From the NCBI RefSeq assembly GCF_000017185.1, contig NC_009635.1, forward strand, positions 684,563 to 748,562: a stretch of DNA of 64,000 bases. Direction: 5' to 3'. This stretch comes from Methanococcus aeolicus Nankai-3. GTDB taxonomy: Archaea > AGJL01 > Methanococci > Methanococcales > Methanococcaceae. The notes beneath the pieces are model-generated. The model had not been told where the DNA came from and did not search any database. It was given only the letters and a program-made list of their open reading frames with translations. The position numbers and the translations under genes are program-made. Shown in pieces: positions 23,080-59,941 of the stretch. Position 1 is the stretch's first letter, and every line of letters starts with the position of its first letter.

Positions 23080-24201
23080 ATTAACACAATAGGCAAATCT
23101 TTTAGAATTACGGCATGGGGGGAAAGTCATGGAAAGGCATTAGGTGCTGTCGTAGACGGATGTCCTTCAAATTTACCACTAACAGGGGAGGACATTCAAA
23201 AGGAGTTAAACAGAAGAAGGCCAGGATATAGCTTATTTTCCACACCAAGAAAGGAGGGGGACAAGGTAGAAATATTGTCTGGAATTTTTGAGGGAAAAAC
23301 TACTGGAACTCCCATATCTGCAATAGTATATAATACAAATCAAAAATCAAAAGATTACAGTCATTTGAAAAATACACCAAGACCGGGACATGCTGATTTA
23401 TCGTATAAATTAAAATATGGAAATTATGATTATAGGGGAGGGGGTAGAAGTAGTGGAAGAACAACAATAGGGCACACAATAGGGGGAGCAATAGCAAAAA
23501 AACTATTGGATTATACTCACAATATAAAAATAATAGGATATACCACAAAAATAGGGAATATCGAAGGAGATTTTAATTATTATAATAGTATTGAAAATAA
23601 TGAAAAAATGATAAATGAGGAATTAATAAATAAAATAGAAAATAATCCATTAAGATGCCCTTCCTCAAATGCCGATGAAATGAAAGATTTTGTATTAAAT
23701 GCAATGGAAAATAAAAACAGTGTCGGAGGAGTAATTGAATTAATTGCCCTAAATGTTCCAGTTGGAGTTGGAAACCCAATATTTGGTAAATTAAATGGGG
23801 AGCTCTCAAATGCAATAATGAATATTAATGCCGTTAAAGGTGTGGAGATAGGTAGGGGATTTGAAAGTGCGGAGCTCCTTGGAAGTGAAATGAATGATGA
23901 ATATTATTATGATGAAAACAATAATATAAAATTAAAAACAAATAATTGTGGTGGTGTGTTGGGCGGCATAAGTTGCGGAGCTCCCTTAGTAATCAGGGTG
24001 GCAGTTAAACCAACGCCATCAATATCCGCAGTCCAAAGCACCATAAATATAGAAAATAAAACAACAGAAAATCTTGAAATAGGGGGACGACATGACCCAA
24101 TAATTGTTCCCAGAGTAATACCTGTTTTGGAATCAATGGTGGCAATTGCGTTAAGTGATTTAATGATTAGAGGTGGATTTATTCACCCCTGTAAATTATA
24201 A
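23080..24201 (+). CDS. aroC: Chorismate synthase, apparent ATT start codon
   Basis: A 373-residue enzyme that converts EPSP to chorismate. The conserved N-terminus, N-T-I-G-K-S-F-R then ITAWGESHGKALGAVVDG, is encoded from 23083, but no ATG, GTG or TTG precedes it in frame: an in-frame TAA is at 23050-23052. The only candidate is ATT at 23080, placed 4 nt after GGTGA, the spacing seen for ATG in roadblock and at 47619. The first canonical start downstream (TTG 23275) would delete 65 conserved residues. Other motifs: RPGHADLSYKLKYG, GGGRSSGRTTIGH and GISCGAPL. A further ATT at 23077 is less well spaced. Confidence 0.93.
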   Translation: MNTIGKSFRITAWGESHGKALGAVVDGCPSNLPLTGEDIQKELNRRRPGYSLFSTPRKEGDKVEILSGIFEGKTTGTPISAIVYNTNQKSKDYSHLKNTPRPGHADLSYKLKYGNYDYRGGGRSSGRTTIGHTIGGAIAKKLLDYTHNIKIIGYTTKIGNIEGDFNYYNSIENNEKMINEELINKIENNPLRCPSSNADEMKDFVLNAMENKNSVGGVIELIALNVPVGVGNPIFGKLNGELSNAIMNINAVKGVEIGRGFESAELLGSEMNDEYYYDENNNIKLKTNNCGGVLGGISCGAPLVIRVAVKPTPSISAVQSTINIENKTTENLEIGGRHDPIIVPRVIPVLESMVAIALSDLMIRGGFIHPCKL

Positions 24202-47618: not shown

Positions 47619-48422
47619 ATGATAGGATTAAAAATTGAAGATGCCTTAAAATTAAATAAAGACCTTAAAAAATACATAACATATAAAAACGGAAAAGCCA
47701 GAATTGACTTTAAAAATAAAGAAGCACTTTATTTATATAATAAAACAATATTGGAACATCTATTCGGGCTAAATATGGAATTCCATAAAGATGCCCTAAT
47801 TCCAACCCCAATAAATCGATATTTATTTATTAAAAACATATTTGATGAAAACCCCCATATAAAGAATGTTTTGGAAATAGGCACTGGTTCGGGCATAATT
47901 TCCATTCTTATAGCAAAACATTATAATTGTAAAATATATATGACAGATACAGTTGAAGAATATGTGGATTTAGCCCAAAATAATATTGAAAATAATTATA
48001 AAAATATCAAAATCAATAACCCAGATGATATCACAGTAATAAATTCAAACGGAAAAATAATAAATGGAATAAAAGAACTTGAAAATATAAAATTTGATTT
48101 AATTATATCCTATCCTCCGTTTTATGATGATAATTCAGTAGCTTCAAAAAGGAGTTTTGGAGGTGCAGATGCCACTTCAATTGAATTAATAGGCGGTGGA
48201 AAATATGGCGAAAAATTTTCATGTGATATTATAATGGAGGGGAGCTCCCGATTAAATAAAAATGGATTAATTGCCATAATGCTACCAGAAAAACCAATAG
48301 AACGGAGAAAAGCCATTGAAAATAAAATAATTGATATGGGATTAATATTAAAATCCGATGACATAAAAACAGGGAAAAGAGTGAGGCATATAATTAAAGG
48401 ACAGTTTCCATCCTTGTTTTAA
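47619..48422 (+). CDS. SAM-dependent N6-adenine-type RNA methyltransferase (RlmF/METTL16-like)
   Basis: A 267-residue methyltransferase. SAM motif VLEIGTGSGIISILIA near residue 85 and the catalytic SYPPFYDD near residue 166, a variant of the NPPF found in RlmF/METTL16-type N6-adenine methyltransferases. ASKRSFGGADATSIELIGGG follows, also typical of that family. The RNA target is not known here. ATG 47619 follows GGTGAAATT. Confidence 0.83.
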   Translation: MIGLKIEDALKLNKDLKKYITYKNGKARIDFKNKEALYLYNKTILEHLFGLNMEFHKDALIPTPINRYLFIKNIFDENPHIKNVLEIGTGSGIISILIAKHYNCKIYMTDTVEEYVDLAQNNIENNYKNIKINNPDDITVINSNGKIINGIKELENIKFDLIISYPPFYDDNSVASKRSFGGADATSIELIGGGKYGEKFSCDIIMEGSSRLNKNGLIAIMLPEKPIERRKAIENKIIDMGLILKSDDIKTGKRVRHIIKGQFPSLF

Positions 48423-48428
48423 TGGATG

Positions 48429-48458
48429 TCTCAAAAATTTCCCCTGGAAAACTTAGAA
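48429..48458. repeat. Degenerate half of a double-hairpin element
   Basis: TCTC followed by AAAAATTTCC with a short TTTCC/GGAAA hairpin, ending CTTAGA, just after the methyltransferase stop. No TACGATCGTA centre. Confidence 0.35.
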
Positions 48459-58818: not shown

Positions 58819-58850
58819 AAGTATTCCTCCTAAAAAGGTTCGGAATACCT
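58819..58850 (-). promoter_or_regulatory. Archaeal SECIS element in the selD 3' UTR
   Basis: On the minus strand, 47-75 nt past the selD stop: GUAUUCC stem, GAA bulge, 3-bp CCU/AGG stem with UUUU loop, single A opposite, then GGAAUAC. A GAA/A internal loop over a 3-bp GC-rich stem with a small loop is the archaeal SECIS consensus, and it is placed in the 3' UTR as in other methanococcal selenoprotein genes. Confidence 0.9.
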
Positions 58851-58870
58851 ATAAAATTGCCAAATATATA

Positions 58871-58906
58871 TCTTAAAATTTGCAAAGCAAATTTTTACGA
58901 TATCTC
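58871..58906. repeat. Half double-hairpin element overlapping the selD stop
   Basis: TCTT, stem AAAATTTGC/GCAAATTTT with loop AAA, then TACGAT and ATCTC. The selD TAA lies inside the TACGAT segment, so this repeat supplies the end of the gene. Confidence 0.6.
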
Positions 58907-59941
58907 TAAAATCTTTAAGTTATCACTTAAATGTGCCTTCCCAACATCAGATTTAGATTTTAAAACTTTTCCTACCATATAGGCATAATTTCCGCTTATT
59001 CGTAGTTTTTCAACCAATTTATCGGCATAATTCGGATTTACAGATATAAACAATCCACCCGCGGTTTCGGCACCATATCCTTTTAATAATTGATGTCCAA
59101 ACGATGAAGACAGATAGTCGGTTTTTTTAATAATCGGAAGAAGATTTATCTCTATATCGACATCACTTTGTTCAGCCATTTCTTGACTATGTCCCAATAT
59201 TCCAAAACCCGTAATATCCGTCATTGCATTTGCTATCTTTTCATTATTTTCCCGCTCCAATTCTCGCAGTGCCATTAGTGCCCCCCGATTTGAAGTAGTC
59301 ATTAATTCAATAGCCTTATCAATTATTCTTTCCTTTTCTTTTGCAGTTATTTCCAATAGGTCTTCATATTCTTCCCCTACTCGAGATAGTGCCATAGCCG
59401 ACTGTGTGCCCAATGGTTTTGTCAATATTAATATATCTCCTTCTTTCGCCCCTCCTTTTGTAAGTATATCCTCTTTTCTACCTACGCCACTAACAGAGCC
59501 CCCAATTATCGGAGCAGGGTTTAATATGGTATGTCCGCCGATTATTGTTGTATCATCAGCCCTACAAAAGTCCTGAAATCCTTTTAACATTTCTTTTGCA
59601 CATTCTATCGGAAGATTTTGAGGAATTCCCATTATTACCAATACACCAATTATATCCAATACGCCCATAGCATAAACATCGCTTATAGAGTTGCATGCTG
59701 CTATTTTGCCCTGTGTATATGGGTCATCTACAATGGGAGTAAAAACATCTACGGTTTTTACTATTGCAAGGTTGTTTCTAATAATTACGGCGGCATCATC
59801 ACCTAATCCAACGAGGGTTTTTTCTAAATCTTCTTTTGATATAATGTCTTTTACCAGTGCCTCTAATTCTGTGTTGGGAAGTTTGCAAGCTCATCCATGG
59901 AGCTCCACCATTTGAGTTAATTTTATATCTTTTGATTTAAT
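58895..59941 (-). CDS. selD: Selenophosphate synthetase SelD, a selenoprotein (UGA decoded as Sec)
   Basis: The enzyme makes selenophosphate from selenide and ATP. Reading up from 59668, the frame stays open to 59911 and beyond except for one TGA at 59893-59891 in VELHG-TGA-ACKLP, the family active-site position normally Cys or Sec. GLGDDAAVI, TVDVFTPIVDDPYTQGKIAA and NSISDVYAMG follow, so the 257-residue ORF ending at 59668 is a truncation. The start could be ATG 59911 (338 aa) or ATT 59941 (348 aa); the ATT lies 4 nt after GGTGA, and the ATG has no Shine-Dalgarno. A SECIS lies downstream. Confidence 0.93.

Follow-up and report, generated by a model that had tools for sequence, protein, structure and literature searches.

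The window, that is, the whole 64,000-nucleotide stretch of DNA analysed here, corresponds to positions 684563-748562 (G000:C1) of the Methanococcus aeolicus genome, which consists of one contig of 1,569,500 bases. It carries selD, the gene of selenophosphate synthetase, on the minus strand. As the first-pass annotation had pointed out, the plain ORF of selD (58895-59668 in the ORF listing) ends early. The frame continues upstream through a TGA codon at 59893-59891, the only one to interrupt it before the next upstream stop. When this codon is translated as selenocysteine, the frame reads ...DIKLTQMVELHG-U-ACKLPNTELE..., showing that the N-terminus of SelD is indeed complete, with TGA at the active-site position (LHG-U-ACKL). 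Taken from the putative start codon discussed below, selD spans 58895-59941 (348 codons plus the UAA stop codon at 58897-58895). Its product matches the SelD families NCBIfam NF010705 (626 bits, cut-off 291) and TIGR00476 (248 bits, cut-off 125), and shows 66-76% identity to its orthologs.

Conservation of the TGA codon was followed in 36 genomes of the order Methanococcales. Three of them had no selD at the threshold used and one further gene was incomplete at the 5′ end. The TGA codon was kept in all of the 32 intact genes, which bears out the claim that selD is a selenoprotein gene with an in-frame UGA.

The SECIS element and the selenocysteine pathway

A hairpin is located in the 3′ untranslated region of selD, about 43 nucleotides past the stop codon (58851-58817, minus strand). 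It folds into a 9-bp basal stem, a GAA/A internal loop, a 3-bp CC(U)/(A)GG apical stem and a UUUU loop, with a free energy of -12.4 kcal/mol (z = -3.2 as compared to shuffled sequences). An alignment of 14 species was built from the locus coordinates. Standard pairs accounted for 98.0%, two-sided changes occurred in 7 of the 11 pairs and 30 compensatory cells were counted. None of 500 shuffles matched these values, and structures slid along the alignment gave 1-6 compensatory cells. In a genome search with a covariance model (R1), the selD hairpin was the best match (E-value 6e-13, the sequence itself being part of the model), followed by the SECIS elements of fwuB and vhuU, with noise below. 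In an independent scan for the structural motif, covering 864 kb of the M. aeolicus genome, only two hairpins were retrieved, those of selD and fwuB, each closely 3′ to a UGA gene; the vhuU element, put to the same scan, fails the requirement for a 6-bp basal stem. No match to a SECIS family was found at the selD hairpin in Rfam (E ≤ 10). Support for the SECIS therefore comes from the alignment and the covariance model of the present analysis. Overall, the hairpin is a genuine archaeal SECIS, as the first-pass annotation had proposed from its internal loop, apical stem and UUUU loop, and chance is excluded. Rfam gave a single match to the CRISPR-DR7 direct repeat in the window, at 48404-48436.

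Some variation of the element was observed among relatives. The two As of the GAA are reported to be invariant, the G being free to vary. The selD SECIS of G009 is a CAA/A variant of the kink motif (L012:2551-2586, plus strand). In G016 and G017, it is degenerate, with UAA replacing GAA and a short basal stem (L056:1342-1374 and L057:1342-1374, minus strand).

The genes expected for selenocysteine synthesis and insertion were all found in the M. aeolicus genome: tRNA-Sec with a UCA anticodon (63.2 bits, cut-off 47), SepSecS (534.6 bits), PSTK (409.6 bits) and SelB (384.6 bits). The first-pass annotation was to be given up if tRNA-Sec, SepSecS and PSTK were absent or if the SECIS did not pair; the three genes are present and the hairpin pairs, and the reading therefore stands. 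A search for other UGA genes, which it had suggested, led to fwuB (NSTI-U-HGPTLMG) and vhuU (DP-U-YSCAAH), each followed by a SECIS (L166 and L120, G000:C1:89441, plus strand; L121, G000:C1:1286657, plus strand). Like selD, these methanogen selenoprotein genes carry a UGA and the same kind of SECIS. Unlike SelD, FwuB and VhuU are enzymes of energy metabolism, and vhuU has an ordinary ATG start. The gene content thus supports the proposal that the selenocysteine system would be active in M. aeolicus.

The selenoprotein nature of SelD is established biology and ordinary for the group, to which the present locus adds one well-supported instance. M. aeolicus Nankai-3 has already been listed with aSelB and SelD (PMC3037878), and a methanococcal selD (sps) SECIS, tested in vivo, is functional in M. 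maripaludis (PMC11881835). The SelD (SPS) proteins of Methanococcus and Methanocaldococcus share with that of M. aeolicus the selenocysteine position, the SECIS anatomy (kink-turn-like GAA/A, 3′ untranslated region) and the pathway (tRNA-Sec, PSTK, SepSecS, aSelB). In contrast, M. aeolicus selD has no AUG, GUG or UUG start and would use AUU.

The start codon of selD

The 5′ end of the selD frame reads TAA TTT GGT GAT AAT ATT AAA TCA AAA GAT ATA AAA TTA ACT CAA ATG GTG GAG CTC CAT GGA TGA. No ATG, GTG or TTG is present in frame between the stop codon TAA (59956-59954) and the conserved KLTxM motif (KLTQM here). A Shine-Dalgarno sequence, GGTGAT (59950-59945), also found before selD in most relatives, is followed three nucleotides later by ATT (59941-59939). 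This arrangement makes the AUU at 59941 the most likely start, and we consider with good confidence that selD translation probably begins there. The first-pass annotation said nothing of a non-AUG start, yet its end coordinate, 59941, coincides with this AUU; the AUU start is mentioned neither there nor in the papers searched. A programmed frameshift at the start was ruled out because none of the frames has a suitable ATG shortly before selD.

The start region was then read in the 19 Methanococcaceae selD genes with an intact 5′ end. ATG was present in 10 cases, ATC in three (G012, G013, G014), and ATT (G000, that is, M. aeolicus, and G019), ATA (G009, G015) and TTG (G006, G007) in two each. 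An apparent AUU, AUC or AUA (AUH) start was thus found in 6 of the 18 Methanococcaceae genomes besides M. aeolicus. The ATC of G012-G014 has the same spacing from the Shine-Dalgarno sequence as the ATT of M. aeolicus. Every Methanocaldococcaceae genome read has ATG. In G009, G015 and G019, a GTG, TTG or ATG overlaps the Shine-Dalgarno sequence itself, and the AUH starts of these three genomes are therefore less certain. G013 and G014 have an ATG in frame farther upstream, without a suitable Shine-Dalgarno sequence. Neither type of alternative start exists in M. aeolicus or G012.

Translation might also begin at the first in-frame ATG (59911-59909), six codons before the selenocysteine codon, giving a selenoprotein starting MVELHG-U-ACKL and leaving GGTGAT-AAT-ATT as a relic. 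This is the only in-frame ATG ahead of the selenocysteine codon and it is conserved in Methanococcaceae. However, no Shine-Dalgarno sequence precedes it, whereas the IKLTxM sequence containing it is conserved upstream of the ATG. Among the species read, the K-L-T codons differ mostly by synonymous changes (TTA/CTT/CTC/CTA; ACT/ACA/ACC). This part of the frame is therefore translated, and the internal ATG comes too late. In addition, the match to the NF010705 profile begins at profile position 3 and at residue 2 of the searched stretch, and Methanocaldococcus orthologs frequently carry TTG or TTA in place of the internal ATG and start at an ATG upstream of it. Finally, aroC and surE (see below) show the same pattern with no internal ATG that would serve. 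We judge this ATG to be an internal methionine codon and a start there to be improbable.

Given the selD frame, the conserved UGA, the covarying SECIS, the pathway genes and the lack of ATG, GTG or TTG upstream of the conserved coding sequence, all read from the DNA itself, we hold it very likely that the locus encodes a SelD that is itself a selenoprotein, made by SECIS-directed UGA decoding and most likely from an AUU start. The ribosome would bind GGTGAT and most likely initiate at the AUU, presumably read by the ordinary initiator Met-tRNA. The UGA would be reached sixteen codons later. There, SelB would bring Sec-tRNA(UCA) under the direction of the 3′ SECIS, and selenocysteine would be inserted before translation proceeds to the UAA. 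As to the supply of this tRNA, PSTK would make Sep-tRNA-Sec, which SepSecS would convert to Sec-tRNA-Sec with selenophosphate from SelD. Since SelD supplies the selenophosphate, it would help make its own selenocysteine residue. If so, SelD departs from standard decoding twice, at its start and inside the gene.

AUU, AUC and AUA as probable start codons in other genes

Start codons were surveyed in 864 kb (55%) of the M. aeolicus genome, comprising 807 ORFs, and in 400 kb each of G012 and G022. Counting M. aeolicus codons with a well-placed Shine-Dalgarno sequence and no other canonical start near gave ATG 170, TTG 20, GTG 8, ATT 4 and ATA 1; the remaining codons occurred 1-2 times each, mostly at internal or spurious positions. 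selD and a lipoprotein gene (GGTGATAAC-ATT) are to be added to these counts. Such counts alone are indecisive, and orthologs were therefore compared.

aroC (chorismate synthase; 23080-24198, plus strand; TIGR00033, 466.8 bits) has a putative AUU start at 23080-23082 after GGTGAA. Its 5′ end reads GGTGAAATT-ATT-AACACA in M. aeolicus, whereas the corresponding codon of 29 orthologs is ATG, GTG or TTG. An apparent AUU start was also found in surE (L215, G000:C1:242336-243142, minus strand), which reads GGTGATAAT-ATT-ATA-GAT in M. aeolicus and GGTGATAAT-ATG-GTA-GAT in its nearest relative, G002; a nearby ATG or GTG is present in 20 of 20 surE orthologs. No AUG, GUG or UUG occurs from the upstream stop to the conserved coding sequence of aroC or surE in M. 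aeolicus. In an adenylate-kinase-like gene, ATA takes the place of the ATG of the ortholog. In these three genes as in selD, the AUH codon shows normal Shine-Dalgarno spacing and is aligned with the AUG of the orthologs. One cobN-like gene and one RimK-like gene of M. aeolicus likewise have no start codon other than the AUH. Together, aroC, surE and about four more genes of this genome show an apparent AUU or AUA start. The survey of G022, a member of the Methanocaldococcaceae, gave one ABC-transporter lipoprotein gene with an apparent AUU (GGTGATATT-ATT; L151, reverse strand near 1251). No AUH start was found in the 400 kb of G012, though selD has ATC in that genome. The comparisons argue strongly that AUH starts are real and that AUU, AUC and AUA probably serve as regular minor start codons in Methanococcaceae.

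We also considered that the AUU starts might reflect sequencing errors or decayed genes, as ATT differs from ATG by one base and each M. aeolicus case comes from a single assembly. However, further assemblies also show AUH starts of selD (ATC in three, ATA in two, ATT in G019), about seven intact M. aeolicus genes combine AUH with a well-placed Shine-Dalgarno sequence, and the selD frame is intact at the identity to orthologs given above. Error or decay is thus very improbable. Still less credible, indeed barely conceivable, is an ordinary SelD gene broken by a stop and starting at 59668, a pseudogene for which the mechanical ORF list, with 58895-59668 alone, would speak and which is contradicted by order-wide TGA conservation, SECIS covariation and the full selenocysteine pathway.

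No report of AUU, AUC or AUA starts in methanococci, or of AUU starts in archaea, was found in the open-access literature, a weak indication that they are new. A comparative study accepted annotated AUA, AUU and AUC starts in its data set (PMC5397173). Therefore, some AUH starts may already be annotated. Gene finders usually overlook starts of the AUU type. Should these codons be genuine starts in Methanococcales, gene finders may mis-start or miss about 1% of the M. aeolicus genes, including those of AroC and SelD, and non-AUG initiation could be studied in archaea that are genetically tractable.

In bacteria, AUU initiation is weak, a point against the proposed starts. Bacterial infC, the gene of initiation factor 3, naturally starts at AUU behind a Shine-Dalgarno sequence, as selD is predicted to do. 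The AUU of infC serves IF3 autoregulation, whereas the putative methanococcal AUH starts are scattered among unrelated genes; to our knowledge, archaea have no IF3.

The frequency of AUH starts was compared between genes by reading aligned loci of Methanococcaceae. AUH was found in 7 of 19 selD genes as compared to 1 of 17 for aroC, 1 of 21 for surE and 0 of 20 for PSTK. The enrichment in selD gave a Fisher p of 0.0005, a value that is too small because the genomes are related. On the SelD tree, the AUH label requires four changes, two of them forced by well-supported branches. The AUH start thus likely arose repeatedly in selD. Selection for weak initiation at selD is only a hypothesis. In its fuller form, Methanococcaceae would use AUH codons as minor starts and selD would be repeatedly drawn to them, with a weak start tuning SelD output and thereby exerting translational control on the whole selenocysteine pathway; we regard this as speculative and rather unlikely.

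A change in aIF1 was considered as a cause of relaxed start selection; its sequence hardly differs among members of the order and shows no obvious change that could explain relaxed starts. A pathway-wide use of AUH among selenocysteine genes was rejected. The PSTK gene starts with ATG in 19 of the 20 Methanococcaceae loci read and with GTG in M. aeolicus. Since PSTK starts normally, AUH starts are not a habit of the pathway as a whole.
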